A DNA stretch of 64,000 nt from Phytobacter palmae. Its GTDB lineage: Bacteria; Pseudomonadota; Gammaproteobacteria; Enterobacterales; Enterobacteriaceae. The stretch is from positions 124,001-188,000 of the forward strand of contig FONB01000006.1 of the NCBI GenBank assembly GCA_900112785.1, read 5' to 3'. The stretch's first letter is position 1; every line of letters starts with the position of its first letter. Made by a program: the position numbers and the translations under genes. Shown in pieces: positions 44,866 through 60,413 of the stretch. Below the pieces are notes generated by a model. That model was not told the DNA's origin. It ran no database searches and saw only the letters and a program-made list of their open reading frames with translations.

Positions 44866-46368
44866 TCAAATGGTGTTAACCTGATTGCGGCCGGAATATT
44901 TTGCACGATAAAGTGCCGTATCCGCACTTTCAATAAGCGAGGTCCCGTCATCATCAATGTCTGTCGCAGCGGCACTGGAAACACCTGTACTGACACTTAC
45001 TACCCCAAAAGGGCTGGCCTCATGGATTAATTTTTCGCTGATGATATTATGAGTAATGGATTCAGCAATGTTTTTTGCTAATTCTGGCTCTGCTTCTGGC
45101 AAGATAACGACAAACTCTTCTCCGCCGTATCGGGCTGCTACTGCATTAAGGTCTGTTAAACTCTCTTTAATTATCCCGGCCACTTTTCTTAAACATTCAT
45201 CACCAGAAAGATGTCCATATTTATCATTATAATTTTTGAAAAAATCGATATCAATAAGCAGCAGCGATATCGATTTTTTATTTATCGCACAATCCTGAAT
45301 TATTTTCGGGAAAGCATGATCAAATTCCCTGCGGTTAGCCAGACCTGTTAAACTATCAACAGAGGCCATCTCTTTTAATTGCGCGTTGGCAGACAGCAGT
45401 GACTCTTTGGCATTGGCGAGTTCTTTATTAAGCTGCATACGCTTGCTGATTTCTTTAAAAACATAACCTCCTGAAAAAAAGGCACATCCGATAAGAAATA
45501 TAATCGTCGCACCCAAAATTTCAGCATGATGCCTCCATGAATTTAAGGCTTCATCTGTACTGACAGCAACCGTCGTGACTAACCCATAGCGTTTATTTTT
45601 CTGAAAGGCGAAAATGCGCTCAATATGGTCAACGCGAGAAATAACAGTTGCCGTTCCTGAGTCACTTTTTTTGAGATAAGAGGTAAACAGGAGCGAATCA
45701 GAAAAAATCTTACCTGTAAACTTTTCATTAAATGGAAAGCGAATCATGAGTGTTCCTGAATCGCTAATCAGCGAGATAGATCCATTCTTCCCGATATCTA
45801 ATTTACCATATGTTTCGAGAAAGTTTTCAATGTTCAGCGTTAAAACAACCACACCTCTGAACATCCTGTTCTCATCTTCCAGCCTTTTGCTGATTGTGAT
45901 CACCCATTTCCCCGTAGTACGACTAATAACCGGAGGGCCAATATAAATATCTTTCGATAAATTATTACGGTGATAGATAAAGAAAGATCTGTCTGCGCCA
46001 TTTCTCCCCCATCTGGGAATATTGCGCATGGCAAGAATTTCATTGCCTTTATCATCATAGATGACGATATTATTGAGTTGTTCAATAAAAGTTGTTTGAT
46101 CCGACAGGAGTGTTCTGATGCGCTCAATCTCTGGTTGTTTTATACCATATATTTCCGTCATACTGGATATGGTTTTTATTATCATCTCACCCTGACGAAT
46201 AACGCCTTCCGAATAAGTATCAAGAGTGCGGCTTAAGTTTATGACATTTATATTAAGCTCATTGATAGTCTGAGTGCGTGCTGAAAAAATCTGGAAGGTC
46301 AATAACACAGAAACAATGAGGAAAGCAACAGTTATAATCAGTGATAAATAAAATTTCTTTTTCTTCAT
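44866..46368 (-). CDS. Membrane diguanylate cyclase with periplasmic Cache-type sensor
   Basis: A 500-residue protein predicted to make cyclic di-GMP. A helix at ~7-28 (YLSLIITVAFLIVSVLLTF) precedes a periplasmic double-Cache-like domain (~30-280) with IVIYDDKGNEIL and SLISDSGTLMI. A second helix at ~285-305 and a short linker follow. The GGDEF domain (~335-500) has the active motif RYGGEEF and SLTGLANRRE. The usual inhibitory RxxD site 5 residues upstream is absent (DLNA instead), so product inhibition may be weak. The frame opens at 46389; 46368 (MKKKKFYLS) gives a standard membrane N-terminus. Confidence 0.9.
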   Translation of the reverse strand: MKKKKFYLSLIITVAFLIVSVLLTFQIFSARTQTINELNINVINLSRTLDTYSEGVIRQGEMIIKTISSMTEIYGIKQPEIERIRTLLSDQTTFIEQLNNIVIYDDKGNEILAMRNIPRWGRNGADRSFFIYHRNNLSKDIYIGPPVISRTTGKWVITISKRLEDENRMFRGVVVLTLNIENFLETYGKLDIGKNGSISLISDSGTLMIRFPFNEKFTGKIFSDSLLFTSYLKKSDSGTATVISRVDHIERIFAFQKNKRYGLVTTVAVSTDEALNSWRHHAEILGATIIFLIGCAFFSGGYVFKEISKRMQLNKELANAKESLLSANAQLKEMASVDSLTGLANRREFDHAFPKIIQDCAINKKSISLLLIDIDFFKNYNDKYGHLSGDECLRKVAGIIKESLTDLNAVAARYGGEEFVVILPEAEPELAKNIAESITHNIISEKLIHEASPFGVVSVSTGVSSAAATDIDDDGTSLIESADTALYRAKYSGRNQVNTI

Positions 46369-46953
46369 GTTGCTTACCCATACATGCAACTAAAAAAAAC
46401 ACCAGCGCATTCAGAAATCTGTCCAGTCACATACGCGCATAGTATGTCACCAGAAAAGGCAAAACAAAACAGGAACGTGTATCTTAACAATATCGGCGAT
46501 AGTGAAACTGACATCTGCTCGCGCTCTGTTAAGCACCACACACTTCGGAGGATTCACCACGTTTTCAGAAAATCATTGAGTTCATCGAATCTGTTTGTTG
46601 CGCAACAGACCATGCGCACGCCGTAATTAGTCAGTCAGGGATAATATGACTGCGATAAGCGAACTGACAAGATTAAGTTACCGCGCAGAAATCCAGTAGC
46701 ACATCTGTTTATATTTAAATTGATATAGTCACCCTATTTAAAAAGTAAATAAATCATAATAAAAAGCTGTTTTGCCATCCTCAATCTTAACCATGGTGAT
46801 AACTGCACAAACGAGCCAGCGCGCGCGACGACAAAATAAGAAACCACCATGGCAAAGCAGAATTCTGTATGTTCTGGCTAAATAAATTTGCAAGGTTATA
46901 TTCACCAGAGAAAATTAATGTGAAGATACCCTTTTACTCCCTGGAGCGCAGGA
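46369..46953. other. Intergenic stretch between diguanylate cyclase and MFS genes
   Basis: About 585 AT-rich bases between divergent starts. It must contain the promoters of both. The open frame at 46384-46626 shows no protein features. No dyad long enough to name as an operator was found. ACTCCCTGGAGCGCAGGA just before 46954 supplies the ribosome binding site for the MFS gene. Confidence 0.4.
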
Positions 46954-48204
46954 ATGAGTCTGACGTCCGGTTCACCCGATAACACACATCCGGCTGGCGT
47001 TGAAAAGAGGCAAAGCCGCAAAGTCCTGGGGGCAACCAGTCTTGCTCACCTTTTCCATGATGGCGCCACCGACCTGCACTATGTCCTTTTTGCTATCTGG
47101 CAGCAGCAGTTTGGGCTTTCCATGGCGCAGATAGGTTTACTTAAGATGTTGTTTTCCGGCGCGATGTCAGCCTTTCAGATCCCCGCAGGAGAATTAGGCC
47201 GAAAGTATGGTGAACGCCGGATATTAATGGCTGGCACCCTGCTTTTGACCGTCGCGCTACTGCTGTACGGAACCTCAACAACACTTATGCAACTCATGAT
47301 ACTGATTGTCATCGGGGGTCTGGGGGCCAGCGTTCAGCATCCGCTCTCCTCCAGTTTTATTACGCGCAATTATTCCGCCAGGCACGCCCGCATTGCCCTT
47401 AGCACCTACAATTTCTTTGGCGATGTTGGCAAAGGGATTATTCCCAGTGTGCTTTCAGCCTGCCTGCTCATTGTCTCCTGGGGAAGCGCCCTGCAGTGGA
47501 TTGCCCTCTTTGGCTTCCTCGTCACCCTCGGCCTGTACCTGTTACTGCCTGTTGATAGTAAAGCCGCGCAGGTGAAGCCGCTGACTGCCAAAGAAGCGCA
47601 CCGCAGTTCGTCTCAGCAACCGGAGATAAAACTCCCTGAGCCGCTGCGCCAGAGGGCTTTCACCGCCTTATGTGTGATAGGGAGTATTGATAATGCAACG
47701 CGCACGGGCACGCTCACTTTCCTTCCTTTTTTGATGGCCGCACGTGGCGCTTCGGCGACGCAAATTGGCTTTGCCTTGACATTAATTTTTATTGGCGGGG
47801 CATTCGGTAAACTGGTCTGCGGCATACTGTCGACCCGGCTCGGCGTGATCAAAACCGTCGCGGCCAGTGAGATAATCACCTCCGCTATTGTGCTGGGGAT
47901 GGCATTTGCCCCACTGCATGTCACCTGGTTACTGTTGATTCCTTTAGGCGTGGCGCTCAACGGAACGTCCTCAATTCTGTATGGTAGCGTTGCCGAGTTA
48001 TCCCGCCCGCAACAGCAAACCCGCGCCTTTGCGATTTTTTATACCGCATCACTCGGTTGTGGTGCCTTAATGCCCCTGATCTACGGTATGGCAGGTGATG
48101 TGATGGGGGTGCAGCAGACCTTAATTCTTGTCGCACTGCTGGTGCTTTGCATCCTGCCTTTGCTTATCCCTGTCAGAAGCGCAGCAACGTATAGCGAACA
48201 GTAA
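46954..48204 (+). CDS. MFS transporter
   Basis: A 416-residue major facilitator protein with about 12 membrane segments in two halves split by a polar loop near residues 205-230. The loop motif GRKYGERR after helix 2 is the MFS A-motif, and GKLVCGILSTRLG is its counterpart in the second half. The N-terminal SLAHLFHDGATDLHYVLFAIW resembles the fosmidomycin-resistance-like branch. GGAG lies upstream of the ATG. It starts the operon leading to RidA, DUF1028 and ArgE genes and may import or expel the pathway compound (inference). Confidence 0.85.
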   Translation: MSLTSGSPDNTHPAGVEKRQSRKVLGATSLAHLFHDGATDLHYVLFAIWQQQFGLSMAQIGLLKMLFSGAMSAFQIPAGELGRKYGERRILMAGTLLLTVALLLYGTSTTLMQLMILIVIGGLGASVQHPLSSSFITRNYSARHARIALSTYNFFGDVGKGIIPSVLSACLLIVSWGSALQWIALFGFLVTLGLYLLLPVDSKAAQVKPLTAKEAHRSSSQQPEIKLPEPLRQRAFTALCVIGSIDNATRTGTLTFLPFLMAARGASATQIGFALTLIFIGGAFGKLVCGILSTRLGVIKTVAASEIITSAIVLGMAFAPLHVTWLLLIPLGVALNGTSSILYGSVAELSRPQQQTRAFAIFYTASLGCGALMPLIYGMAGDVMGVQQTLILVALLVLCILPLLIPVRSAATYSEQ

Positions 48205-48341
48205 TGCGATCCCTGACGCCAGCCGCCCCAGGCATGGATGGGTGTTCGCATTTTCTAAACTAAAGCCTCGGATTATGCTGTTTTGTTTGTTTTGTCTGAG
48301 AAGATATACCTTGCGGGGAACCCATTTACTGGCAGGCAACG

Positions 48342-48776
48342 ATGAGCACACATACCCGCATTCGCAAATTCAATACCAAAGACACCTACCCGAATCAGTC
48401 ACTGGACAACGATCTTTGCCAGGCAGTTCGTGCCGGCAATACCGTGTACGTTCGTGGCCAGATTGGGACCGATTTTGACGGTAACCTGGTCGGGCTTGGC
48501 GACCCGGCAGCACAAGCTGAACAAGCGATGAAGAACGTAAAACAGCTTCTGGAAGAGGCTGGCAGCGATCTGTCACACATCGTGAAAACAACCACCTATA
48601 TCATCGATCCCCGCTATCGCGAGCCGGTTTATCAGGTCGTCGGCAAATGGCTAAAAGGGGTGTTTCCCATCTCAACCGGACTGGTCATTTCCGCACTGGG
48701 TCAACCGCAGTGGTTGATGGAAATTGATGTTATCGCGGTGATTCCGGACGACTGGCATTCACCAACGGGAGACTAA
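48342..48776 (+). CDS. RidA-family (YjgF/YER057c/UK114) deaminase-like protein
   Basis: A 144-residue RidA-superfamily protein. RidA hydrolyses reactive imines and enamines such as 2-aminoacrylate; other subgroups act in specific catabolic routes. Family segments are VRAGNTVYVRGQIGTD, AEQAMKNVKQLLEEAG, VKTTTYIID and ISTGLVISALGQPQWLMEID. The RidA catalytic Arg region differs (STGLVIS), which suits a pathway-specific Rid subfamily rather than core RidA. It is 4 bp from the DUF1028 gene. An imine-hydrolysing step after oxidation of an amine would fit the monooxygenase in this locus (inference). Confidence 0.85.
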   Translation: MSTHTRIRKFNTKDTYPNQSLDNDLCQAVRAGNTVYVRGQIGTDFDGNLVGLGDPAAQAEQAMKNVKQLLEEAGSDLSHIVKTTTYIIDPRYREPVYQVVGKWLKGVFPISTGLVISALGQPQWLMEIDVIAVIPDDWHSPTGD

Positions 48777-48780
48777 GACC

Positions 48781-49455
48781 ATGACATTATCGATTATTGG
48801 TCGCTGCGCACAAACCGGCCAGATAGGCATTGCCATCAGCTCGTCGAGTATTGCGGTGGGGGCGCGCTGCCCGTGGCTGCGCAGCAAGGTCGGCGCGGTA
48901 TCGACCCAAAACATAACCTTACCGGCGCTGGGGCCGCGTATTCTTGAAAGGTTGCAACAGGGCGATAGTGCCGAAACCGCGCTAAAGACCGGGCTGGCCA
49001 CGGATGACTATTTTATCTACCGACAGGTCACCGTAATGACGGCAGATGGGGAAATCGCCTTCTACAGTGGCGAAAAAACGCTCGGCGTTAATAACGCCCT
49101 GAGCGGCGAGAACTGTGTGGCGGCGGGTAATCTGCTCGCGGATCCGAATGTCATTGTCGCGATGATAAACGCGTTCGAACAGCAAACCGGGCATCTTGCC
49201 GACAGGCTCATTGCCGCAATGCAGGCGGGTGTTGGCGCAGGCGGAGAAGCAGGTCCGCTACATTCGTCCGCGCTGTCAATTGTCGATTCTCACATCTGGC
49301 CGATAGTAGATTTGCGCGTCGACTGGACTGATGCCGATCCGGTGGATGAACTCAGTAAACTTTGGCACGCCTGGCAACCCCAGATGCAGGACTATTTAAC
49401 GCGCGCGCTCGATCCCCGTAGCGCACCTGGTTACGGCGTGCCCGGCGACGAGTAA
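48781..49455 (+). CDS. DUF1028 family protein
   Basis: A 224-residue DUF1028 protein, thought to have an Ntn-hydrolase-like fold. Hallmarks are TLSIIGRCAQTGQIGIAISS, VGARCPWLRSKVGAVSTQN, AFYSGEKTLG and CVAAGNLLADPNVI, then GGEAGPLHSSALSIV. The family has no settled activity, but its genes occur repeatedly next to RidA, amidohydrolase and amino-group-releasing genes. It sits between RidA (4 bp) and ArgE-like (15 bp) genes, so the three should act together, perhaps hydrolysing an amide (inference). Confidence 0.85.
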   Translation: MTLSIIGRCAQTGQIGIAISSSSIAVGARCPWLRSKVGAVSTQNITLPALGPRILERLQQGDSAETALKTGLATDDYFIYRQVTVMTADGEIAFYSGEKTLGVNNALSGENCVAAGNLLADPNVIVAMINAFEQQTGHLADRLIAAMQAGVGAGGEAGPLHSSALSIVDSHIWPIVDLRVDWTDADPVDELSKLWHAWQPQMQDYLTRALDPRSAPGYGVPGDE

Positions 49456-49470
49456 GCGCAAGGAGATCTG

Positions 49471-50637
49471 ATGATGACCAGCCGCGAAATGCTCGAAAAA
49501 CTGGTGGCGTTTGACACCACCAGCCGCGAATCTAATCTGGCGCTGATTGACTTTATCGGCGGTTACTTAACCGGGCTCGGCGTTAACTACGAACTGATTC
49601 ACAACGCCGAGCGCAGCAAAGCCAATCTTTATGCGCGGCTTGGCCCGTCGGGAAAGGGGGGCGTTATGCTCTCTGGTCATAGCGATGTGGTCCCCGTTGA
49701 CGGGCAGAACTGGAGCGTTCCCCCTTTTACCCTGACTGAGCGCGAAGGCAAACTGTATGGTCGGGGCACGGCAGACATGAAAGGCTTTATTGCCTGTATC
49801 CTCGGAGCGCTCCCCCACTTTCTTGCGCAGCCACTGGCGCAACCGCTGCATCTGGCGATTTCTTATGATGAGGAGGTCGGATGCCTCGGCGTGCGTACGC
49901 TGCTCGATGTGCTCTCCCGCCGGGCGGAAAAGCCCGCTATCTGCCTGATTGGCGAACCCACTGAGCTGCAACCGGTTCTTGGTCACAAAGGCAAACTCGG
50001 CATGCGCTGTGAAGTTCAGGGCGCTGCCTGTCATTCGGCTTATGCGCCGCAGGGTGTCAATACCATTGAGTATGCTGCAAAGCTCATCCACCGCCTTACG
50101 CTCACAGGCCAGCGGCTGGCCGCGCCGGAACATCATGATGCGCGGTTTGATCCGCCCTTTACCACGGTACAAACGGGTCTGATTCAGGGCGGCCGGGCGC
50201 TGAATATCGTGCCAGCCGAGTGTACATTTGACTTTGAAGTGCGTACGTTGCCGCAGGATGATGCCCTGGAGATAACCCGGGACCTGGAAAGTTACGCACA
50301 GCGCGAGCTTCTGCCCGATATGCACGCCGTCAGTCGCGATGCGGCGATCCGCTTTTACCCCATCAGCAGTTATCCCGGCCTGTACACCTGCGCGCAAAGC
50401 GCCGCCGCACGGCTGATTGCTCATCTCACCGGCTCCGAAAGGTTCAGCACCGTCGCATTTGGTACGGAAGGTGGGTTATTTCATCAGACAGGCATCCCCT
50501 GCGTGATATGCGGTCCTGGCAGTATGGCGCAGGGCCATAAAGCGGATGAGTTCATTACTGTCGAACAGTTGAACGCCTGCGACGCCCTGCTGCGCCGTCT
50601 TGCGACGTGGATGTGTCAAAACAGGCCAGATCTCTGA
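49471..50637 (+). CDS. ArgE-like M20 metallopeptidase/N-acyl-amino-acid deacylase
   Basis: A 388-residue di-zinc M20 enzyme of the acetylornithine-deacetylase group. Zinc ligands are visible: SGHSDVVPVDG, LYGRGTADMKGFI, SYDEEVGCLG and the C-terminal GPGSMAQGHKADEF. The dimerisation lid is present in the middle (HSAYAPQGVNTIEYAAKLIH). AGGAG lies 5 bases before the ATG at 49471. In a catabolic operon it is more likely to remove an acyl group from an N-acyl amine or amino acid than to make ornithine for arginine synthesis. It ends the first part of the locus; 168 bp separate it from the ABC ATPase gene. Confidence 0.87.
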   Translation: MMTSREMLEKLVAFDTTSRESNLALIDFIGGYLTGLGVNYELIHNAERSKANLYARLGPSGKGGVMLSGHSDVVPVDGQNWSVPPFTLTEREGKLYGRGTADMKGFIACILGALPHFLAQPLAQPLHLAISYDEEVGCLGVRTLLDVLSRRAEKPAICLIGEPTELQPVLGHKGKLGMRCEVQGAACHSAYAPQGVNTIEYAAKLIHRLTLTGQRLAAPEHHDARFDPPFTTVQTGLIQGGRALNIVPAECTFDFEVRTLPQDDALEITRDLESYAQRELLPDMHAVSRDAAIRFYPISSYPGLYTCAQSAAARLIAHLTGSERFSTVAFGTEGGLFHQTGIPCVICGPGSMAQGHKADEFITVEQLNACDALLRRLATWMCQNRPDL

Positions 50638-50805
50638 CATTCCTTTTAATACAGGGCGCGCGCCGGCCCGCTCTTCGTTCATCCACATTGCTATCTCTCT
50701 GCTTTAACTTTTCCAAACGCCAGCTTCGGGAAGCACTAACCGCGTGAACTGCGTTTAAGCCGTATGCTGGGTTCTGGCATTTGATAGCCCTTTTCCGGAG
50801 ATTCC

Positions 50806-51963
50806 ATGGTCAGTGCAGAAGTCACCCAATTTCCGCAGCCCGCAACGCTGCAACCTGACGTGAACCACACTCGCGTTGCCGTACGACTCGATGGCGTACT
50901 CAAACGCTTTGGCGACGCCATCGCCTTACACAAAATTTCCCTGATGATTGAAGAAGGTGAATTTATTACCCTGCTCGGCCCGTCAGGCTGCGGCAAAACC
51001 ACGTTGCTGAATCTGATGGCGGGTTTCGCCGAAGCGGATGGCGGCGAAATCTTTATTGATGGCGAGCTGGTGACAGATACCCCACCCTGGCAGCGTGAAA
51101 TCGGCATTGTGTTTCAGAACTACGCGCTCTTCCCGCACATGACGGTCGAGAAAAATGTGGGGTACGGTCTGCGCATGCGCAGTGTTCCCAAAGCCGAAAT
51201 CGCTGAGCGCGTTGAACAGGCACTGGCGCTGGTGAAGCTTGCCGGTTACGGCCATCGCAAACCCCGTGAGCTTTCGGGTGGTCAGCAGCAGCGTGTGGCG
51301 CTGGCGCGTGCGCTGGTCATTCGCCCCAAAGTCCTGCTGCTTGATGAACCTTTCTCCGCGCTGGATAAAAATCTGCGCCTGTCGATGCAGGTTGAGTTGA
51401 AAGCGATTCAGCGCAAGCTTGGCGTCACCACTGTCTTCGTGACGCACGATCAAGGTGAGGCGTTGAGCATGAGCGATCGCGTGGTGGTGATGTCTGCGGG
51501 GCATGTTCGCCAGACAGGCACGCCGGATGAGATTTATCGGCGTCCGCAGGATCCCTTTGTCGCCGGGTTTGTAGGTGATGTGAACATTCTGCCGGGTCGC
51601 TACGTCGGCCGCGATGGCGTAGCGATGCTGGAGCTTGGCGGTAATGTGCTTCGCCTGCCAGCAGAACGTGTCCATGCCACGATTGGCGAGCGTCTTGATC
51701 TCTTTGTGCGCCCGGAAAATATTCAACTGGCAGCCCTCGGCCCGCATTCGCTGCTCAGCGCCACGGTGATTGCCCATGTCTTTCAGGGCGAGCATGTTGA
51801 TGTGCATCTCGATGTGCCCGCACTGGGCAACGCCACGTTATTTGCGCGCCAGTCCGGGCTTAATGCGCTGACACGCTGGCCCGTCGGTAGCCTGGTGGGC
51901 GTGAATGTCGATGATGAAGGTGTATGCGCGTTTAGCGCGGCAAGCCAGGATAAACGCGGATGA
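50806..51963 (+). CDS. ABC transporter ATP-binding subunit, PotA-like
   Basis: A 385-residue ATPase of the spermidine/putrescine-iron importer class. Walker A is GPSGCGKTT, Q-loop VFQNYALFPHMTVEKNVGYG, signature LSGGQQQR, Walker B VLLLDEPFSALD and switch His FVTHDQ. A TOBE regulatory domain follows (~250-380). Its matching binding protein and two permeases lie at 56.3-59.0 kb beyond the LysR gene, so the transporter is split over two operons. The stop codon overlaps the next start (ATGA). The 168-bp upstream gap may hold a promoter. Confidence 0.92.
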   Translation: MVSAEVTQFPQPATLQPDVNHTRVAVRLDGVLKRFGDAIALHKISLMIEEGEFITLLGPSGCGKTTLLNLMAGFAEADGGEIFIDGELVTDTPPWQREIGIVFQNYALFPHMTVEKNVGYGLRMRSVPKAEIAERVEQALALVKLAGYGHRKPRELSGGQQQRVALARALVIRPKVLLLDEPFSALDKNLRLSMQVELKAIQRKLGVTTVFVTHDQGEALSMSDRVVVMSAGHVRQTGTPDEIYRRPQDPFVAGFVGDVNILPGRYVGRDGVAMLELGGNVLRLPAERVHATIGERLDLFVRPENIQLAALGPHSLLSATVIAHVFQGEHVDVHLDVPALGNATLFARQSGLNALTRWPVGSLVGVNVDDEGVCAFSAASQDKRG

Positions 51964-52955
51964 TGCCTGAAATGATGAACGCCATAATTGCGGGCCGGCC
52001 AGGGGGGCCAGAGGTACTGGAACAGGTGCAGCGTCCACTCCCCCTGCCGGGAGCGGGTGAAGTACTTATCCGCGTTGCCAGCGCGGGCGTCAATCGCCCC
52101 GACATCCTGCAACGCAACGGCATGCCTTTGCCGCCGGGTGTCACCGATGTGCTGGGGCTTGAGGTCTCAGGCACCGTTATAGCGCTGGGTCAAGGCGTTG
52201 AATTCCCCGCGCCAGGTTCGCCGGTCATGGCACTGCTCAATGGCGGGGGGTATGCAGATTACTGTGTGGCGCGAGCCGAACTCTGTTTATCTGTTCCGGA
52301 AAATCTGCCTCTTAGCCTGGCGGCAGGCGTGCCGGAAGCGGCCTTTACCGTGTGGCATAACCTGTTTGAACTGGGGCGTTTGCAGCCCGGCGAAACCGTA
52401 CTGATCCACGGAGCAGCCAGCGGCGTAGGCACATTTGCTATTCAGTGCGCACAGGCGTGCGGGGCGCGCGTGATAGCCACCGCTGGCGGCGCTGAAAAAA
52501 TTGCGGCGCTGCAACAACTCGGGGTATGGCGTGCCATCAACCGCCACGACGAAGATTTCGTCGAGGTCATTCTGACTGCAACCGGGGGGCATGGTGTGGA
52601 TGTGGTACTGGATAACGTGGGTGGCGATTACGTGGCGCGTAATCTGAGCGTGCTGGCACCACGCGGACGCCACGTCAGCCTCTCGTTTATGCAGGGCGCA
52701 AAGATTGAACTGGATCTGCAAATGGTGATGCGTAAAGAACTGATCCTGACCTCTTCCACCCTGCGCCCTAAAAGCCTCGCCGAGAAAATGCGCCTGGCGC
52801 AGTGCATCAGTAAACATCTGCTGCCGCTGATAGCCGCAGGTAAAATCACGCCACTCCTTTATCAAACCCTGCCCCTGGCACAGGCCGCCCGGGCCCATCG
52901 CATTCTGGAAGCCAATGCCAATATCGGCAAAGTGCTGCTGCAGGTGGCGTCATGA
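51960..52955 (+). CDS. NAD(P)H:quinone oxidoreductase, zinc-free MDR (QOR/PIG3-like)
   Basis: A 331-residue medium-chain dehydrogenase/reductase of the zeta-crystallin/PIG3 branch. Segments are VASAGVNRPDILQRNG, VLGLEVSGTVIALG, LIHGAASGVGTFAIQ (NADPH-binding) and LDNVGGDYVARNLSVL. No zinc-binding Cys cluster of alcohol dehydrogenases is present. It reduces quinones or activated double bonds. The ATG overlaps the ABC ATPase stop by 4 bases, and the stop overlaps the next start, so it is in the middle of a fully coupled operon. Confidence 0.88.
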   Translation: MMPEMMNAIIAGRPGGPEVLEQVQRPLPLPGAGEVLIRVASAGVNRPDILQRNGMPLPPGVTDVLGLEVSGTVIALGQGVEFPAPGSPVMALLNGGGYADYCVARAELCLSVPENLPLSLAAGVPEAAFTVWHNLFELGRLQPGETVLIHGAASGVGTFAIQCAQACGARVIATAGGAEKIAALQQLGVWRAINRHDEDFVEVILTATGGHGVDVVLDNVGGDYVARNLSVLAPRGRHVSLSFMQGAKIELDLQMVMRKELILTSSTLRPKSLAEKMRLAQCISKHLLPLIAAGKITPLLYQTLPLAQAARAHRILEANANIGKVLLQVAS

Positions 52956-53566
52956 TGCAACTCTTTTTTGCCAGCACGTCCGCCTATGTTCGCAAAGTGA
53001 TGGTGTGCGCAACCGTACTGGGTCTCGCTGATGAGATAGAAAAGCTGGACTCTGCCGCGCATCCTGTCGTGCGCGACGAGCGTATTGCCCGGTTTAATCC
53101 CCTGGCAAAAGTCCCGGCGCTACGTACCGAAGAGGGGCTCTGCCTCTATGATAGCCGGGTCATTTGTGAATACCTCAATGCGCGCGCACAGGGCCATTTA
53201 TACCCGGTGAACGCAGAGACGCGCTGGCGAAGTCTGACACGACAGGCACTGGGTGACGGCATTATTGATGCCGCATTACTGGCGCGCTACGAGTTCACTG
53301 CCCGCCCCGCCGGGAAACAGTGGCAAGGCTGGGCTGACGCGCAACTGAAAAAAGTCGCCGCCGCACTGTCGCAGATTGAAAGCCAGGTCAGCCATTTTAG
53401 CGACCAACCCGACGATATCGGGCTTATTGCCATCGGCTGCGCGCTCGGTTATCTCGACTTTCGCTTTGCCGAACTCAACTGGCGCGCCAGCCACCCGCTT
53501 ACCGCCGCATGGTTCGCCCTCTTCGATGCGCATCCGGCGATGACCGCTACCCATCCGCACGTTTAA
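52952..53566 (+). CDS. Glutathione S-transferase family protein
   Basis: A 204-residue GST. The thioredoxin-like N-terminal domain has the cis-Pro site KVPAL and the glutathione-binding YDSRVICEYL, and a helical C-terminal domain follows. The N-terminus FFASTSAYVRKVMV has the Ser expected as catalytic residue in beta/theta-like and YfcF/YibF-like enzymes. It overlaps the quinone reductase gene by 4 bp. With that neighbour it suggests a reactive, electrophilic intermediate in the pathway. Confidence 0.88.
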   Translation: MMQLFFASTSAYVRKVMVCATVLGLADEIEKLDSAAHPVVRDERIARFNPLAKVPALRTEEGLCLYDSRVICEYLNARAQGHLYPVNAETRWRSLTRQALGDGIIDAALLARYEFTARPAGKQWQGWADAQLKKVAAALSQIESQVSHFSDQPDDIGLIAIGCALGYLDFRFAELNWRASHPLTAAWFALFDAHPAMTATHPHV

Positions 53567-53578
53567 TCAGGAGTGTGC

Positions 53579-54028
53579 ATGTCACAGCAGATCTATTTTC
53601 TTAATGGGCCGAATGCCAATTTATATGGGCTTGATAAAAGCGGCACCTACGGCAGCGAAAGTTTTGTCAGTCTTGGCGAACGCTGCCAGCGCCGCGCCGC
53701 GACACACGGCGTGGTTTTGCATTTTCGCCAGAGCAATCACGAGGGCGTGCTGGTTGACTGGATCCAGGAGGCGCGTCAGCACGCCGCAGGGTTAATTATC
53801 AACGCCGCGGGGTTGACCTACAGTTCCGTCCCCATACTGGATGCATTGCTGATGTTTGATGGCCCTGTCATTGAAACGCATATGAGCAACATCTGGAAAC
53901 GCGAGCCGTTTCGCCATCACTCGCTGGTATCAAAAGCGGCAACCGGTGTGGTTGCCGGACTCGGTGCGCTGGGTTATGAGCTGGCAATTGATGCGGTAGT
54001 CAAGCTAATGGAGAGACACAGCGCATGA
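53579..54028 (+). CDS. Type II 3-dehydroquinate dehydratase-like protein with altered active site
   Basis: A 149-residue protein of the AroQ fold, numbered as in the Mycobacterium tuberculosis enzyme. Conserved residues are N12 (NGPN), the lid Tyr Y24, N75, E99, H101 and R112 (REPFRHHS). The catalytic lid Arg expected at 19 is Asp (GLDKSGTYG where TREPxxYG is normal). The substrate-binding His expected at 81 is Tyr (GLTYSS for AYTHTS). The enzyme thus seems unfit for dehydroquinate and may act on another cyclic or hydroxy-acid compound (inference). AGGAG is 5 bases before the ATG at 53579. It overlaps the next gene. Confidence 0.82.
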   Translation: MSQQIYFLNGPNANLYGLDKSGTYGSESFVSLGERCQRRAATHGVVLHFRQSNHEGVLVDWIQEARQHAAGLIINAAGLTYSSVPILDALLMFDGPVIETHMSNIWKREPFRHHSLVSKAATGVVAGLGALGYELAIDAVVKLMERHSA

Positions 54029-54954
54029 GCACCCTGGTGTTTTACAGCGAATTCGATAGTTTCGAAGAGTGGTCGGCCTTACTTGCGCCACATTTACCCG
54101 GCGTGACAATTTGCCGCGCCGAAACAGTGCAAAACCCCGACGAAGTGCACTATGCGCTGGCATGGAAACCGCCACATGGATTCTTTGCGCCGTACCGCAA
54201 TCTTAAGCTGCTGGTTAATCTCGGCGCGGGTGTCGATTCACTGGTGGGGCGCGACGATCTGCCGGCTATTCCGATTGTTCGTCTGTCCGACCCGGACATG
54301 TCGCGTATGATGGCAGGCTACGTGCTTTTTGCCGTTTTGCGCTACGCGCGCGATATCCCGGCATTCGAGCGCGCGCAGCGTGAGCAGCGCTGGCATTACC
54401 TGCATCCACGTACGCCTTCCGGCATCCGCGTCGGGGTGCTGGGACTGGGGGAGCTGGGTGCGTATACGGCGCAGGAGCTGGCGCGTCAGGGGTTCGACGT
54501 GCACGGCTGGTCGCGTACACCCAAAACGATCGACAATATTCGCTGCAGCAGCGGACTGGGATCGCTGAACGATTTTCTTAGCCAGAGCGACATTCTGGTG
54601 GTCATGCTGCCTCTCACTTTGCACACGGCAGGTCTGCTCAGCGCTGAACGACTGGCCTGCCTCCCCAGCGGGGCGGCGTTTATCAATGTTTCGCGCGGTG
54701 CAATTGTCGATCAGGCGGCACTGACAAAAGCCTTGCGCTCAGGGCAGATTGCGCAGGCCACGCTGGATGTGTTTGACCGTGAGCCGCTGCCGCCAGACGA
54801 TCCGTTATGGGGCATGGACAATGTCCTTATCACACCGCATCTGGCGTCCGTCGCCATTCCGGCCAGCGCCGCACAACAGGTCGCAGAAAACATTCAGCGT
54901 GCTGCACGCGGCGAGCCGGTTAGCGGACAGGTATTCCCGGCGCGTGGCTACTAA
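54025..54954 (+). CDS. D-2-hydroxyacid dehydrogenase, GhrA-like
   Basis: A 309-residue NAD(P)-dependent 2-hydroxyacid dehydrogenase close to glyoxylate/hydroxypyruvate reductase A. Features are the substrate-binding VNLGAGVDSLVG, the Rossmann motif VGVLGLGELGAYTAQEL, WSRTPKT (Arg for NADPH), INVSRGAIVD with catalytic Arg, and the acid-base His in ITPHLASV. It is the last gene of the coupled operon from the ABC ATPase onward and is convergent with LysR after only 7 bp. It probably reduces a 2-keto acid product such as glyoxylate (inference). Confidence 0.9.
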   Translation: MSTLVFYSEFDSFEEWSALLAPHLPGVTICRAETVQNPDEVHYALAWKPPHGFFAPYRNLKLLVNLGAGVDSLVGRDDLPAIPIVRLSDPDMSRMMAGYVLFAVLRYARDIPAFERAQREQRWHYLHPRTPSGIRVGVLGLGELGAYTAQELARQGFDVHGWSRTPKTIDNIRCSSGLGSLNDFLSQSDILVVMLPLTLHTAGLLSAERLACLPSGAAFINVSRGAIVDQAALTKALRSGQIAQATLDVFDREPLPPDDPLWGMDNVLITPHLASVAIPASAAQQVAENIQRAARGEPVSGQVFPARGY

Positions 54955-54961
54955 GTTGTCG

Positions 54962-55924
54962 TCACGCCACCCGCACGACCTGGGGATCGAAATAGCTCGG
55001 CGCCGCCATGCCGGGAATATACTGATCGGAGATAAAAACACGGCAGCGCTCAGCAAAGGCGTTAACCACCATTGAGTGCTGGGTGTGGGCCGCAATCGCG
55101 TAACCCAGTTGCATCGGTCTGTTCGACCCCGCCAGCCGTACGCGAATCAGACGCTTACCGTCCTGGGAAAGATGCGCTTTTGGCCGCACGTTGGCGATGC
55201 CAAATCCCACGCCATTTGCCACCATCGAGCGCACCACTTCCATATTACTGGAGCGCATCACCACATTGGGCGTAACGCCCGCTTCGCTGAAAAGCCCGAG
55301 GAAATATTCACGGCTCCATGGCATATCCAGCAACACCATCGGCATTGTCGCCAGATCCTCAATGGTCACCGCCGACTGCGTCGCAAACGGATGATGTTCC
55401 CCCACCATCACATAGGGCGGCAATTGCGCCAGCGATGTGAAGACAATATCGCTGGCGGGGACTAAATCGTAAGTCAGCGCGATGTCGATATCGGCAGTGC
55501 GTAACTGTTTGAGCAACTGTTCATGGTTGCCTTCGACAAGGGTAATGCGCACGCCAGGAAAGGCGCGTCCAAAGCCGAAGACCAGTTCGGGCGTCAGCAT
55601 CGGGGCCAGCGTATCCAGACAGCCTACACGCAGGGGGCCACGCACATTGTTCATGGATTCCGAGGCGATAGTATAAAGATTCAACATCTGCTCCAGAATG
55701 AGTTTTGCCTCTTTCAGAACCTGATGGCCGATGGCGGTAAGCGAAACGCCCTGCGCGTGATGGCGTACAAAGAGCTGTACGCCGAGTTCAGATTCGATAT
55801 GGGTGATGGCGGCAGAGATCGACGGCGATGAAACGTGGATACGTTCTGAGGCGCCAATGATACTGCCGGCCTCCCCGGAGGCGACAAAATATTCCAGCTG
55901 ACGCTGGGTAATGCGACTGAGCAT
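54962..55924 (-). CDS. LysR-family regulator of the catabolic locus
   Basis: A 320-residue LysR regulator. The helix-turn-helix is at residues ~8-66 (YFVASGEAGSIIGASERIHVSSPSIS) and the effector domain runs to the end. It lies between the two operons of the locus: convergent with the first (7-bp gap) and divergent from the binding-protein operon (342 bp between starts). A perfect 7-bp inverted repeat 22 bp upstream of its start is a likely autoregulatory site. It probably activates the locus on binding the substrate or an early intermediate. Confidence 0.92.
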   Translation of the reverse strand: MLSRITQRQLEYFVASGEAGSIIGASERIHVSSPSISAAITHIESELGVQLFVRHHAQGVSLTAIGHQVLKEAKLILEQMLNLYTIASESMNNVRGPLRVGCLDTLAPMLTPELVFGFGRAFPGVRITLVEGNHEQLLKQLRTADIDIALTYDLVPASDIVFTSLAQLPPYVMVGEHHPFATQSAVTIEDLATMPMVLLDMPWSREYFLGLFSEAGVTPNVVMRSSNMEVVRSMVANGVGFGIANVRPKAHLSQDGKRLIRVRLAGSNRPMQLGYAIAAHTQHSMVVNAFAERCRVFISDQYIPGMAAPSYFDPQVVRVA

Positions 55925-55945
55925 GCAGGTTCTCCTGAGATCGCC

Positions 55946-55964
55946 GACGCGATCATGTCGCGTC
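55946..55964. promoter_or_regulatory. Inverted repeat upstream of the LysR gene
   Basis: GACGCGA-TCATG-TCGCGTC is a perfect 7-bp dyad with a 5-base spacer. It lies 22 bp before the LysR start and 303 bp before the binding-protein start. It is close enough to the LysR gene to act in autorepression. The rest of the 55925-56266 gap is AT-rich and should contain both promoters. Confidence 0.5.
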
Positions 55965-56266
55965 AGTCATTCTAATAGTGCTAATTTTTATGCATTTATC
56001 ATGCCAAATCACAAATAACAGCATAATCCCCTGCTTTTGCAGAGCCCTCCTTTCCTTCTGCCTTATCACTGGTTAAGAAAATCCGTTGCAAAGCAGCGCT
56101 TTTTTTAGCCTCGGAAATTCTGATGCAGAGACGAGGAAAAGGCTGTTTTACGCAATCCATACGCCACGTCATTATCGCTTTCACACCAGGGAACACCGTT
56201 TGCACCGTTCTGGCGCGCCGGGTTTCAGATTGCCACAACAGCCATTTCATGTATGGGGATGAGAAT

Positions 56267-57298
56267 ATGTTGCGTAAGATTCGTGCCTTAACGTTGTTGA
56301 CCACATGTGTGCTAAGCGCAGGAAATGCGATGGCAGCGGACAAACTGATTGTCAGCACCTGGGGCGGCGGCTTTAAAGATTTGATCGACGAGACCATCGC
56401 GAAAGCGTTTACCAAAGAAACCGGCGTGGAAGTGCAGTTTGTTACAGGCGGCACCATTGATCGTCTCAACAAAGCCAAACTGGCCGGCGACTCACCGGAA
56501 ACTGACGTGACCTTTACCACTGCGCACGTGGGCTATCTGTATGCCAATTCCGGGCTGTTTGAAAAGCTCGATATGAGCAAAATCCCGAATGCGGCAAATC
56601 TTGTGCAACAGGCGAAAGTCAGCCCTTATCACCTCGGCGTCTGGGGCTACGTTTACACCATCGGCTACCGGGCGGATTTAGTACCCAAAGGCGAAACCTT
56701 CACGAGCTGGAACGACCTGTGGAAACCGGAACTCAAGGGCACTCTGGCGCTGCCTGACTGGGACCCGAGCCACATTATTGCAGTGGCCGCCAGACTCTCC
56801 GGCACCGACGCAGCCCACTGGCAGCAAGGCCAGGCGAAGCTCAAGGCGCTGATCCCGAACATCAAATCCTTCTATACCGATGACGCTAATAGTCAGCAAC
56901 TGATCTCCACCGGGGAAACGCCGGTTCAGGTCATGCTGTCGATGAACGCTTACAACATGATGGCCGAAGGGGTGGACGTCAAACTGGCGATACCGAAAGA
57001 GGGGGCGATTCTGGGCGTGGATACCATAGGGATCAACAAAGGCACCCGCCATAGCGAACTCGCCTATAAGTTTATCAATATTGCCCTTAAGCCCGAGATC
57101 CAGCAGCAGGTGGCGAAGATTTATCACGGCAGCCCAACGGTAACTAACGCCCATATCGATCCTGAGCTGGCGAAACTGCCGGGCATGCTGACCACACCTG
57201 AGCAGTGGAACGCCACCATCAATACCGATCCGCAACTGCGTGCCGAGAAAACCGCCGAATGGCGTCAGTGGTTCTCTGAAAACATCATGTCTCATTGA
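56267..57298 (+). CDS. ABC transporter periplasmic binding protein, PotD/PotF-like
   Basis: A 343-residue binding protein with signal peptide MLRKIRALTLLTTCVLSAG, cleaved near AMA-A (residue 23). It belongs to the polyamine/iron binding cluster: LIVSTWGGGFKDLIDETI, ETDVTFTTAHVGYLYANSGL, VPKGETFTSWNDLWKPELKG and GINKGTRHSELAYKFINIAL. The frame is open from 56123, but the signal peptide starts at 56267. Ligand is uncertain; relatives bind putrescine, spermidine, opine-like or aromatic amine compounds. It is the first gene of the second operon. Confidence 0.9.
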   Translation: MLRKIRALTLLTTCVLSAGNAMAADKLIVSTWGGGFKDLIDETIAKAFTKETGVEVQFVTGGTIDRLNKAKLAGDSPETDVTFTTAHVGYLYANSGLFEKLDMSKIPNAANLVQQAKVSPYHLGVWGYVYTIGYRADLVPKGETFTSWNDLWKPELKGTLALPDWDPSHIIAVAARLSGTDAAHWQQGQAKLKALIPNIKSFYTDDANSQQLISTGETPVQVMLSMNAYNMMAEGVDVKLAIPKEGAILGVDTIGINKGTRHSELAYKFINIALKPEIQQQVAKIYHGSPTVTNAHIDPELAKLPGMLTTPEQWNATINTDPQLRAEKTAEWRQWFSENIMSH

Positions 57299-57361
57299 TT
57301 TAGTGGGCGGCTTACCGGTCGCCCTGGTTCTACCGGCAGCACATTACTCAGGCAGCATGTT

Positions 57362-58216
57362 ATGACGAGAAAACCGACATTTTTACCCTGGTTCATTATT
57401 CCCGCCACGTTAACCGCATTCGGGCTGGTCATCGCGATGCTCGCAGTGATGCAATTCAGCGTGCGGGCGTATATACCCGGTTCGCTCGACGTGGGCGGAT
57501 TTACACTGGCCAACTTCAACAGCCTGTTTAAAAGCATCTATGCCGATGCGTTTATTAATACTGTCATGCTGAGTGCCAAAACCGCTCTTTTTGGCCTGCT
57601 GATGAGTTATCCGCTGGCCTATGCGCTGGTGCGCACCCGCACCTTATGGATCAAATCCGCTATTTTGATTATTGCGATTACGCCGTTGTTTCTCGGCGAA
57701 GTGGTGCGTACCTACTCCTGGATTATCGTGCTCGGCAACAGCGGTTTCCTTAATAGCCTGTTGCTGGCGTCTGGCATCATCTCAAAGCCCATTCAGTTTA
57801 TGTTTACACAGACTGGCGTAGTCCTGGCGTTGGTGCATGTCACCATGCCAGTCATGGTGTTGATGCTGGCGACCGCGTTATCACACATCAATCCCGATTA
57901 CGAGAAAGCTGCCAGGAGCCTCGGCGCAGGGCCTATCCGCACCCTGCTGACTGTGACGATCCCCCTCTCCTTCCCCGGCATCGTCGCCAGCCTTACTACC
58001 GCTTTTGCCTGGACGTTTAGCGCCTTTGCCACACCGCAGCTCATTGGCGGCGGACGCGTCAGCACCGTCGCCACGATGGTCTATCAACTGGGTTTCTCAT
58101 CGATGAATTTTCCGTTTGCTGCCGCACTCAGTATCGCCGGGTTAATTCTGACCATCCTGTTGCTGATGGCGCTAAAACGCATGACCCGATTCCTGCACGC
58201 GATGGGAGAACACTGA
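57362..58216 (+). CDS. ABC transporter permease, PotB-like
   Basis: A 284-residue inner-membrane permease with about six helices, starting at FIIPATLTAFGLVIAMLAV. The EAA motif that docks to the ATPase is EKAARSLGAGPIRTLLTVTI near residue 180. Type I import permease of the polyamine class. It is one base pair from the next permease gene, so the pair forms the heterodimeric channel. Its ATPase is encoded in the other operon at 50806. Confidence 0.92.
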   Translation: MTRKPTFLPWFIIPATLTAFGLVIAMLAVMQFSVRAYIPGSLDVGGFTLANFNSLFKSIYADAFINTVMLSAKTALFGLLMSYPLAYALVRTRTLWIKSAILIIAITPLFLGEVVRTYSWIIVLGNSGFLNSLLLASGIISKPIQFMFTQTGVVLALVHVTMPVMVLMLATALSHINPDYEKAARSLGAGPIRTLLTVTIPLSFPGIVASLTTAFAWTFSAFATPQLIGGGRVSTVATMVYQLGFSSMNFPFAAALSIAGLILTILLLMALKRMTRFLHAMGEH

Positions 58217-58217
58217 T

Positions 58218-59036
58218 ATGACCCGTTCACTTAACGACAAACTGATAACGCTGGCAGGTCGCCTGCTGGTTGTCGCAATTCTGCTCTTTGTCATGCTGCC
58301 GACCATCGTGGTGTTTATCTCTTCGTTTAGCAGCACTGCCGTACTGTTTTTCCCGCCAAAAGGCTGGTCGCTGCGCTGGTTCGAGCGGGCGGTAAATTAT
58401 GACGATTTCCGTCATGGTTTCTACTCCGGGCTGATTGTCACCGCATGGGCATCATCGCTGGCGGTCATCATTGGCGCCACGCTGGCGATTGCCATTGAAC
58501 GCTATTCGTTTGCGTGTAAACAGGTGCTGGAAGGGGTTCTGCTGTCACCGCTGTTTATTCCCCACTTCACTATTGGTCTGGGACTGTTGATGCTGGTGTC
58601 GCAACTCAATCTCGGGCGCGGTTACCCGCTGGTAATTTTCTGCCATATCGTGCTGGTACTGCCGTTTGTGTTGCGTAGTGTCTATGTGTCGTTAAAAAAC
58701 CTTGAACAGCGCATTGAGCTCGCGGCGGCAAGTCTGGGGGCATCGCCGCTACGCGTGATATGGACCATCACCGTGCCCCTGATTTTACCGGGGCTGTTTG
58801 GCGGCTGGCTGTTTGCCGCAATCCTCTCCTTTAACGAATTTACCGCATCGTTGTTTATTACTACCCAGGCCACGCAGACTTTACCGGTGGCAATGTACAA
58901 CTATGTCCGTGAATTTGCTGATCCGACACTCGCTGCCCTGTCGGTCATTTATATTGCCGTCACCGCCATGATGTTAATTATCGCCAATAAGTTTTTAGGT
59001 CTGGGGAAAATATTAAACATTGAAACCAGACAGTAA
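58218..59036 (+). CDS. ABC transporter permease, PotC-like
   Basis: A 272-residue permease with about six helices (LLVVAILLFVMLPTIVVFIS near the start). The EAA motif is ELAAASLGASPLRVIWTITV near residue 175. It is the second half of the import channel. Gene spacing of 1 bp to the PotB-like gene gives coupled synthesis. A 126-bp gap follows before the monooxygenase gene. Confidence 0.92.
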   Translation: MTRSLNDKLITLAGRLLVVAILLFVMLPTIVVFISSFSSTAVLFFPPKGWSLRWFERAVNYDDFRHGFYSGLIVTAWASSLAVIIGATLAIAIERYSFACKQVLEGVLLSPLFIPHFTIGLGLLMLVSQLNLGRGYPLVIFCHIVLVLPFVLRSVYVSLKNLEQRIELAAASLGASPLRVIWTITVPLILPGLFGGWLFAAILSFNEFTASLFITTQATQTLPVAMYNYVREFADPTLAALSVIYIAVTAMMLIIANKFLGLGKILNIETRQ

Positions 59037-59162
59037 TAACCATGAATACGTGTGCGCCGGATATTCCCACGCACTGCATTAAAAAACTGATTGCCATTAA
59101 TACCGCCCCGATGACGCGTAGCGATAAAACTATCGAGGGTCGCTTATATTTAGGGATTCACT

Positions 59163-60413
59163 ATGTCAACAGAAAAAATTAATACTGTGATTGTCGGCGC
59201 CGGTCAGGCCGGTATCGCCATGAGCGAGCATCTGTCCTTAATGGGTGTGCCTCACATTGTCCTGGAGCGTAGTCGTATTGCTGAACGCTGGCGCTCTGAA
59301 CGCTGGGATTCACTGGTAGCGAACGGGCCTGCGTGGCACGACCGCTTTCCGTCGCTAAAATTCGACAATATCGCCCAGGAGGCTTTCCCGCCGAAAGAGC
59401 GCATGGCGCAGTATTTCGAAGACTATGCGAAGATGATTAACGCCCCTGTGCGCACAGGTGTTGCGGTGCATCAGGTTACTCGCCTGGCAGGGCGCAGCGG
59501 GTTCAAAGTTATAACCTCAGCCGGTGATTTTGAAGCCGACAATGTGGTCGCCGCCACCGGTCCGTTTCAGAAACCGTCATTCCCGCAGATTGTCCCGGAA
59601 AGCGCCGGGCTGCACCAGATCCACTCTTCGGTCTATAAAAATCCGCAGCAACTGCCGCAAGGCGGCGTGCTGGTTGTGGGCGCAGGTGCTTCCGGTACGC
59701 AAATCGCCGAAGAACTGCGTCAATCGGGGCGTGAGGTTTATCTGTCGGTCGGTGAACATTATCGTCCACCGCGCTCTTACCGAGACCGTGATTACTGCTG
59801 GTGGCTGGGGGCGCTGGGTCTGTGGGATGAAGTGAAAATAAAGCCCAAAAAAGAGCATGTTGCCTTTGCCGTGAGCGGTTATGAAGGGGGGAAAACGGTC
59901 GATTTCCGTCGTCTGGCGCATACGGGCATTACACTTGTGGGTATCACCAAAAGCTGGGATAACGGTGTGCTGAGCTTTGCCGAAGGGCTGGCAGAGAATA
60001 TCGCTGCGGGCGATAACGCCTATTTTGACGTATTGCGCGATGCGGATGCTTATATTGAACGCAACGGGTTGGATCTGCCGCCGGAGCCGCAGGCGTGGGA
60101 GTTACTGCCGGACCCGGAGTGCCTGCTCAATCCGCTGGCGCAATTAGATATTGCCGCCGCTGGTATTAGCACGATTATCTGGGCAACGGGTTTTACATTT
60201 GATTTTGGCTGGCTGCAGGTTGATGCATTTGATGAAAAAGGCCTGCCCTTCCATAAGCGCGGTATTTCAGCAGAGCGTGGCATCTATTTTCTTGGCCTGC
60301 CAAATCTGGTGAACCGTGCATCTTCGTTTATTTACGGTGTCTGGCATGACGCAAAATATATTGCCGATCATATTGTTTTGCAAAACGCCTATACCGATTA
60401 CGTTAAATCATAA
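59163..60413 (+). CDS. Flavin-dependent monooxygenase (FMO/YUCCA-like)
   Basis: A 416-residue two-dinucleotide-binding flavoprotein. The FAD motif is VIVGAGQAGIAMSEHL near residue 10 and the NADPH motif is VLVVGAGASGTQIAEEL near 170. Between them lies HSSVYKNP, matching the end of the FMO fingerprint, and an ATG motif (IIWATGFTFDFGW) is near the C-terminus. Such enzymes oxygenate nitrogen or sulphur atoms or carry out Baeyer-Villiger or decarboxylating oxygenation. It is next to the importer genes and is the probable first oxidative step. AGGGA precedes the ATG. Substrate unknown. Confidence 0.87.
   Translation: MSTEKINTVIVGAGQAGIAMSEHLSLMGVPHIVLERSRIAERWRSERWDSLVANGPAWHDRFPSLKFDNIAQEAFPPKERMAQYFEDYAKMINAPVRTGVAVHQVTRLAGRSGFKVITSAGDFEADNVVAATGPFQKPSFPQIVPESAGLHQIHSSVYKNPQQLPQGGVLVVGAGASGTQIAEELRQSGREVYLSVGEHYRPPRSYRDRDYCWWLGALGLWDEVKIKPKKEHVAFAVSGYEGGKTVDFRRLAHTGITLVGITKSWDNGVLSFAEGLAENIAAGDNAYFDVLRDADAYIERNGLDLPPEPQAWELLPDPECLLNPLAQLDIAAAGISTIIWATGFTFDFGWLQVDAFDEKGLPFHKRGISAERGIYFLGLPNLVNRASSFIYGVWHDAKYIADHIVLQNAYTDYVKS

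Follow-up and report, generated by a model that had tools for sequence, protein, structure and literature searches.

A locus of Phytobacter palmae with a Hin-type ring-opening core that may serve the catabolism of an azole other than histamine

Introduction

The locus considered here lies at positions 46,954 to 60,413 of a 64,000-nucleotide stretch of Phytobacter palmae contig FONB01000006.1 (the window, by which we mean that whole stretch), and its closest described counterpart is the Hin system of histamine degradation in Pseudomonas. According to two reports on that system (PMC8231116, PMC6467879), the hinFLHG cluster, PA5393-PA5390 in P. aeruginosa, converts imidazole-4-acetate to aspartate, with HinF acting as an FAD-monooxygenase (EC 1.14.13.5), HinL as an enamine deaminase, and HinH and HinG as amidases (EC 3.5.1.8 for HinG). 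The same reports describe hinC as encoding an aminotransferase, hinD an aldehyde dehydrogenase, hinI an aspartate ammonia-lyase, hinA a permease, and hinK a LysR regulator that answers to imidazole-4-acetate, and they place the hin genes of P. putida at four scattered sites (PMC8231116, PMC6467879). PMC6467879 gives AWA45227-AWA45230 as the accessions for HinH, HinG, HinF, and HinL.

The locus in the window carries genes for a flavin monooxygenase (FMO), a RidA-family protein, a DUF1028 protein, and an M20 deacylase that very likely form a HinFLHG-type core, together with a PotABCD-type ABC importer, an AroQ-like protein, a quinone/enone reductase (QOR), a glutathione S-transferase-like protein (GST), a GhrA-like dehydrogenase, and a LysR regulator. 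An earlier reading of the bare sequence (the original prediction) had named 14 genes here, each name now backed by Pfam or NCBIfam, and had taken them for a two-operon catabolic locus with a split importer; the gene set is indeed a single catabolic unit that recurs across related genomes. We consider it probable that the locus encodes a paralogous pathway for azole catabolism, which relies on a Hin-type core for ring opening and is directed at an azole other than histamine. With less assurance, we lean to the wider proposition that bacteria have a second azole pathway alongside histamine degradation, one that combines the Hin core with an importer of the PotABCD type and a 3-dehydroquinase-fold enzyme put to a new use, that consumes an imidazole-type compound other than histamine, and that has spread through Proteobacteria and onto conjugative Klebsiella plasmids.

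Results and discussion

The four-gene core

The FMO, RidA-family, DUF1028, and M20 genes correspond in family to hinF, hinL, hinH, and hinG of P. putida U and P. aeruginosa, HinH being matched to the DUF1028 protein from its position as the third of four. All four are present in 86 of the 95 related loci that were counted, and in 44 of the 59 loci of what is defined below as FMO branch B they stand in the order FMO-RidA-DUF1028-M20 on one strand within 5 kb. Nine of 60 related genomes, the window's own among them, have DUF1028, and these are also the nine with a close FMO (>570 bits); in seven other genomes, the FMO matches are confined to 21-253 bits. The four core genes lie together in stretches of 16-19 kb in the eight other genomes, three of which (two of the same genus, one of the same family) hold the full set and five the core alone. 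Since DUF1028 and the close FMO share the same nine genomes and are clustered within 19 kb or less, the gene set is far from a chance assembly. The neighbourhood of DUF1028, AroQ-like, and FMO genes, for which the original prediction had suggested a search, likewise co-occurs in other genomes.

The regulator also matches the Hin system. The PDB sequences closest to the LysR protein of the window are 3fzv and 6m5f, at about 206 bits, with the next protein at 100 bits; 6m5f is titled HinK, 3fzv has identical aligned letters, and HinK, at 34-35% identity, also heads the Foldseek ranking. The window RidA is 91% identical to the copy at a Pseudomonas putida locus (L069). An Arthrobacter plasmid (L101) is annotated with FMO, RidA, DUF1028, M20, and aspartate ammonia-lyase genes plus a primary-amine oxidase, an arrangement that resembles the histamine-oxidase route discussed for Brevibacterium in the Hin literature. 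Its RidA and DUF1028 proteins are 65% and 48% identical to those of a P. putida locus, near the values given there for HinL (61-65%) and HinH (48-50%) between Brevibacterium and P. putida, and its FMO, at 71%, lies above the range for HinF of 60-63% (PMC8231116, PMC6467879).

The absence of any named pathway with this set, as asserted in the original prediction, thus does not hold for the core, where the FMO, RidA, DUF1028, M20, and LysR genes match hinFLHG and hinK. It may hold for the remaining genes; a literature search confined to open-licence papers turned up no paper on the fuller set and led to histamine papers. The kinds of steps that had been proposed, namely oxygenation by the FMO, an enamine or imine step, and deacylation by the M20 enzyme, were the right ones, whereas the proposed reduction of a 2-keto acid is a conjecture. 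A customary imine-removing role for the RidA protein finds no support, however, as Arg105 of archetypal RidA, which we take to be the anchoring Arg, is missing in 92 of 92 aligned rows (the aligned residue is Ser in 86, Cys in 5, and Phe in 1). Two other roles were tried and rejected for this protein: one of the 2-aminomuconate type, for which the match to 6izh reaches just E 1.6e-5, and one in a Rut-like uracil pathway, for which the RutC model scores 37 bits against a cut-off of 169. The DUF1028 protein is predicted to be an N-terminal nucleophile (Ntn) hydrolase, on the basis of a predicted Ntn fold and an invariant Thr2, the putative nucleophile, which directly follows the Met at the nucleophile end. 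It shares the predicted fold with taspase-1, HslV, and the proteasome beta subunit, from which it differs as a small stand-alone protein.

Two branches of the monooxygenase

The related loci were drawn from an FMO scan of named genomes, in which the best 80 of 590 relatives were kept, along with 11 annotated plasmid stretches and 8 stretches from related genomes, for a total of 99. Of these, the 95 in which the FMO reaches 60% identity were counted, and L098 (59.8%), L100, L103, and L104 were left out. The loci were chosen by FMO similarity (some plasmids by DUF1028), so they are related rather than independent, and several end inside the cluster, which makes gene absences weak evidence. Genes were counted by tblastn, since gene calling misses some of them. 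A first grouping by the presence of AroQ gave 33 loci in branch A and 62 in branch B, and these numbers became 36 and 59 on the FMO tree, which shifted L028, L030, and L040 to branch A (the stretches with L030 and L040 are short or truncated, and L028 is without the other genes as well). On this tree, built by a quick method from 97 rows thinned to 73 and with the outgroup on a very long branch, all AroQ-bearing loci and the three others form one clade that includes the window, with a support of 100 and a stem of 0.76.

The two branches differ in their companions. The eight accessory genes are each absent from all 59 branch B loci; in branch A, QOR is present in 29/36 loci, GST in 27/36, the GhrA-like gene in 28/36, AroQ in 33/36, and each of the four importer genes in 27-29/36, with all 12 enzyme and importer genes occurring jointly in 18/36. 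An alpha-hydroxy-acid oxidase is also exclusive to branch A (14/36 versus 0/59), as are an arylmalonate-decarboxylase-type protein (8 loci), a class II aldolase (6), and a TRAP binding protein (5); the window lacks the oxidase, which follows the FMO gene in a Klebsiella plasmid. Conversely, an NCS1 permease occurs in 41/59 branch B loci versus 0/36, and genes of the histamine type are commoner there: 12/59 versus 0/36 for a class III aminotransferase and 18/59 versus 2/36 for an aldehyde dehydrogenase. The modest frequency of these histamine-type genes in branch B slightly reduces our confidence in a non-histamine azole as the substrate.

Within the FMO itself, 157 positions are nearly invariant across both branches and 16 are conserved (at least 90%) differently in each. 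Among the 16, branch A has Trp in place of Arg312 and Asn in place of Arg384, a double loss of Arg that would be in keeping with a substrate that is not a small carboxylate. A search for a second FMO, which covered 28 of the 31 branch A loci from the named-genome scan (without L014, L030, and L040), found a B-type enzyme as well in 4 of the 28 genomes, 76-86% identical to the P. putida FMO. The downstream proteins behave otherwise. In trees of RidA, DUF1028, and M20 (quick method, LG+G4, long-branched rows flagged), the A/B label changes six times each, of which at least 3, 2, and 4 changes, respectively, are forced by well-supported branches, and one fully supported set in the RidA tree unites the window with 16 branch B and 10 further branch A rows. 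Because these three proteins mix across the branches while the FMO splits, the downstream steps appear to be shared and the entry step to differ. The gathering of all AroQ-bearing FMOs in one clade, with the downstream genes mixed, is the pattern to be expected of a new entry substrate that is channelled into a shared ring opening.

Several relatives of the FMO are worth recording. The window protein has full-length homology to the MSMEG_0569-family flavin oxidoreductase (TIGR04046), at 342.2 bits, below the cut-off of 498.35; the context of that family is presumably a nitrilase cluster, and such a context was not seen at the window locus. Klebsiella plasmid matches H83-H118 carry a more distant member of the MSMEG_0569 family, about 40% identical to the window FMO. 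At positions 890-17742 of L100 (Aminobacter sp. MSH1 pAM01), an A-like cluster has an HpaB-type monooxygenase and a flavin reductase in the place of the FMO, with a HutD-family protein and an aspartate ammonia-lyase close by. The FMO gene of Salipiger abyssi pPABY5 (L098, 6646-13284) has immediately upstream of it a cluster for thiamine biosynthesis, which runs from thiC to a gene of the ThiF-like kind. Catabolism of vitamin B6, pyridine, or thiamine, as hinted at by the NCS1 permeases and by these thi genes, was dropped as a candidate, as the Hin set explains the core better.

The importer and the AroQ-like protein

The importer resembles the PotABCD spermidine/putrescine system in that its ATPase passes the polyamine ATPase subfamily cut-off and its two permeases and solute-binding protein (SBP) belong to the same superfamily, and it differs in having its genes divided between two operons. 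A specificity for polyamines is not borne out: the SBP scores 90 bits against the PotD equivalog model (cut-off 582) and 54.8 bits against that of PotF (cut-off 636), failing both by far, so that 'polyamine' is here a superfamily label. At the residues that we take to contact the ligand in PotD (Asp168, Glu171, Trp229, Trp255, and Asp257), the alignment shows a site that is partly kept, with both Asp residues retained, Trp229 changed to Leu, Trp255 to Gly, and Glu171 to His. Polyamine or opine catabolism was dropped as a candidate on these grounds.

The AroQ-like protein shares the fold family of type II 3-dehydroquinases and keeps the Tyr26, His103, Asn14, Asn77, and Arg114 positions; it differs in three substitutions, loop Arg to Asp, His to Tyr, and His to Trp. 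The first of these falls on what is presumably the catalytic-loop Arg of 3-dehydroquinases, and it is general, the position being Asp in 32/33 distinct operon-type copies and Arg in 14/15 other copies. The protein scores 147.8 bits against the equivalog TIGR01088, below the cut-off of 169.85, and passes the subfamily models NF003806 (178.9 versus 171), NF003807, and NF003805. The host has a separate type I dehydroquinase, and the AroQ-like protein is predicted, from its sequence, to be neofunctionalised.

A proposed pathway and its alternatives

We infer the reactions and the substrate from gene content, conservation, family membership, predicted fold, and residue changes. The PotABCD-type importer would take up an azole acid or a related compound, the side chain of which may be adjusted by the AroQ-like protein acting as a lyase, the PIG3-type enone/quinone reductase, the GST, and the GhrA-like dehydrogenase, joined in the 14 branch A loci that have it by the alpha-hydroxy-acid oxidase. 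The branch A FMO would then oxygenate the ring, the RidA-family protein would aid hydrolysis of the resulting enamine or imine, and the DUF1028 protein, as a predicted Ntn amidohydrolase, would cut a C-N bond in the opened ring. Finally, the M20 enzyme would strip a formyl (or acyl) group to leave an amino acid that is probably aspartate or one of its homologues, and the HinK-like regulator would sense an acid of the pathway. The substrate is probably neither histamine nor a polyamine.

We do not class the locus as a histamine pathway, because the contiguous hinFLHG order is absent from the window, where RidA, DUF1028, and M20 lie together with the FMO gene in the other operon, because no front end of the HinC/HinD type is found among the genes of the locus, and because the window FMO falls outside the clade found with histamine-type genes. 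The window further differs from the Hin system in the added importer, AroQ-like, QOR, GST, and GhrA-like genes. The locus nonetheless appears to work like Hin ring opening and to be built from it.

Several points weigh against this reading. The ring might be that of a different azole or N-heterocycle, and the substrate might even be imidazole-4-acetate itself. The tie to the Hin enzymes is one of families, gene order, and context, with a direct comparison just for HinK of P. aeruginosa by way of the PDB, and the compact F-L-H-G order occurs in 0/36 branch A loci, the FMO gene of the window lying some 9-10 kb away from RidA-DUF1028-M20 in its second operon. Some core gene is missing from the available DNA in 7/36 branch A loci, partly as contigs or flanks end (all four are present in the other 29, and in 57/59 of branch B), and in two actinobacterial loci, L096 and L101, a search with the M20 protein of the window missed, within the limits applied, the M20 gene that is annotated behind DUF1028. 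The Aminobacter A-like cluster has no FMO of 60% identity. The 16 differing FMO positions were placed by alignment, the AroQ counts are not independent, since branch A was first defined by AroQ, and p-values mean little for loci that share ancestry.

Of the alternatives, an additional locus for imidazole-4-acetate, or for imidazole-lactate or imidazole-pyruvate, fares best, and we regard it as unlikely rather than remote. The importer would here take up imidazole-4-acetate or a hydroxy or keto derivative that the extra oxidoreductases convert to imidazole-4-acetate, and the branch A FMO would be isofunctional with HinF. Such a role is consistent with the HinK-like regulator and with RidA, DUF1028, and M20 proteins that are not separated by branch; the alpha-hydroxy-acid oxidase and GhrA-like enzymes would suit entry through imidazole-lactate or imidazole-pyruvate, and the aspartate ammonia-lyase by the Aminobacter cluster suggests aspartate as the product. 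However, the branch A FMO stands on a long stem of its own with 16 differing positions and two Arg residues lost, four of the 28 genomes keep both FMO types, and the AroQ-like, QOR, and GST proteins would have no obvious role.

Somewhat more doubtful is the opening of a different N-heterocycle, such as pyrrole or pyridine, with the extra genes accounting for dehydration and enone reduction (AroQ-like and QOR) and isomerisation (GST). These would make a plausible dehydrating, reducing, and isomerising set, an HpaB-type monooxygenase replaces the FMO in Aminobacter, and an arylmalonate-decarboxylase-type protein is present in 8/36 branch A loci, but the M20, DUF1028, and RidA proteins do not set branch A apart from branch B. 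The originally predicted catabolism of an N-substituted amine or N-acyl amino compound through a polyamine-type transporter would agree with the generic roles of the FMO, RidA, M20, and PotABCD families, but it is improbable, as the four-enzyme core and regulator match the imidazole-4-acetate pathway, which points to imidazole-type ring opening with a removed acyl group that is probably formyl, and as the SBP is so distant from the polyamine models.

An azole pathway other than that for histamine, which we continue to prefer, would draw annotations that are now unconnected in many Proteobacteria ('acetylornithine deacetylase', '3-dehydroquinate dehydratase', 'polyamine transporter', and DUF1028) into one pathway. 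DUF1028 would also gain a tie to HinH and a definite mechanism, that of an Ntn hydrolase acting through Thr2, and the gene set includes a dehydroquinase-fold paralogue with a conserved loss of the family's catalytic-loop Arg.

Distribution on plasmids

The 12-kb unit has matches in 141 of 72,556 plasmid records, with at least 80% of it covered in 108; 104 of the 141 are from Klebsiella and 97 are predicted to be conjugative. One of these plasmids, the Klebsiella IncFIB/IncFII plasmid pUUH239.2, predicted to be conjugative, carries the full unit and the alpha-hydroxy-acid oxidase at positions 9180-22487 of L094, beside a vapBC-type toxin-antitoxin pair. For the gene set matched by the 104 Klebsiella records, azoles offer a space in which to search for the substrate, and the set could be a nutritional trait there. 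In Escherichia coli, 67 of 5,426 genomes have some match; among the 20 matches listed, one, on a plasmid, has a large part of the unit together (46%), and the other 19 are 98-base pieces of cysA.

Layout of the locus and neighbouring features

The features of the locus are listed in Table 1. As originally predicted, five genes are tightly packed from the ATPase gene to the GhrA-like gene, with 4-nucleotide overlaps between the ATPase and QOR, QOR and GST, and AroQ-like and GhrA-like genes and a gap of 6 nucleotides between the GST and AroQ-like genes. The RidA, DUF1028, and M20 genes are also closely spaced, with gaps of 4 and 15 nucleotides. The LysR gene is on the opposite strand, divergent from the SBP gene; the start predicted for the latter is the ATG that precedes a signal-peptide-like stretch, within a longest open reading frame that begins at 56123.

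Table 1. Genes of the locus, with positions in the window and the supporting family or model
Feature	Position	Strand	Family or model
MFS transporter, peripheral	46954..48204	+	PF07690
HinL-type RidA-family protein	48342..48776	+	PF01042
HinH-type (by position) DUF1028 protein, predicted Ntn hydrolase, Thr2 nucleophile	48781..49455	+	
HinG-type M20 deacylase (ArgE-like), predicted N-formyl amino acid deformylase	49471..50637	+	NF005710, 562.8 bits (cut-off 412)
ABC importer ATPase (PotA-like)	50806..51963	+	TIGR01187, 366.2 bits (cut-off 355.6)
PIG3-type quinone/enone reductase (QOR)	51960..52955	+	TIGR02824, 407.7 bits (cut-off 296.8)
Glutathione S-transferase-like protein	52952..53566	+	PF13409, PF13417
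AroQ-like protein, predicted neofunctionalised type II dehydroquinase fold	53573..54028	+	PF01220
GhrA-like 2-hydroxyacid dehydrogenase	54025..54954	+	PF02826; NF012013, 213 bits (below cut-off 403)
HinK-like LysR regulator	54962..55924	-	Closest PDB sequences 3fzv, 6m5f
Periplasmic solute-binding protein (SBP, PotD superfamily)	56267..57298	+	PF13416
ABC importer permease (PotB-like)	57362..58216	+	PF00528
ABC importer permease (PotC-like)	58218..59036	+	PF00528
HinF-paralogous flavin monooxygenase (FMO), branch A	59163..60413	+	Pyr_redox_3/FMO-like

The MFS gene appears peripheral to the unit, as a copy of at least 40% identity is found in 2/36 branch A loci, both from genomes of the same genus, and in 1/59 of branch B, and none lies directly upstream of RidA in pUUH239.2; other MFS genes are near the Streptomyces and Shinella clusters. 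In one genome of the same genus (L106, 6078-8522), the PotA match is split in two, with starts about 1.6 kb apart, as if by an insertion in the gene.

No palindrome of the LysR-box type (T-N11-A, 6 of 7 half-site matches) was found in five intergenic regions, and the window contains neither a tRNA nor an Rfam match that reaches the gathering score. Blocks conserved in relatives are present upstream of RidA (48208-48341), PotA (50638-50805), and SBP/LysR (55925-56266). A possible operator is the sequence AGCCTCGGA, which in the window stands upstream of RidA and again upstream of SBP; some relatives differ by one base in the copy before SBP.

The G+C content of 53-60% at 47-60 kb contrasts with 39-49% on one side (44-47 kb) and 45-48% on the other (60-64 kb), but not cleanly, as 42-44 kb also has 55-58%, so that base composition hints at an island at most. 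Genes related to cyclic di-GMP are found on both flanks in the lower-G+C DNA, at 44866-46389 and 60569-62644 (minus strand), their products being a Cache-GGDEF protein and a PAS-GGDEF-EAL protein.

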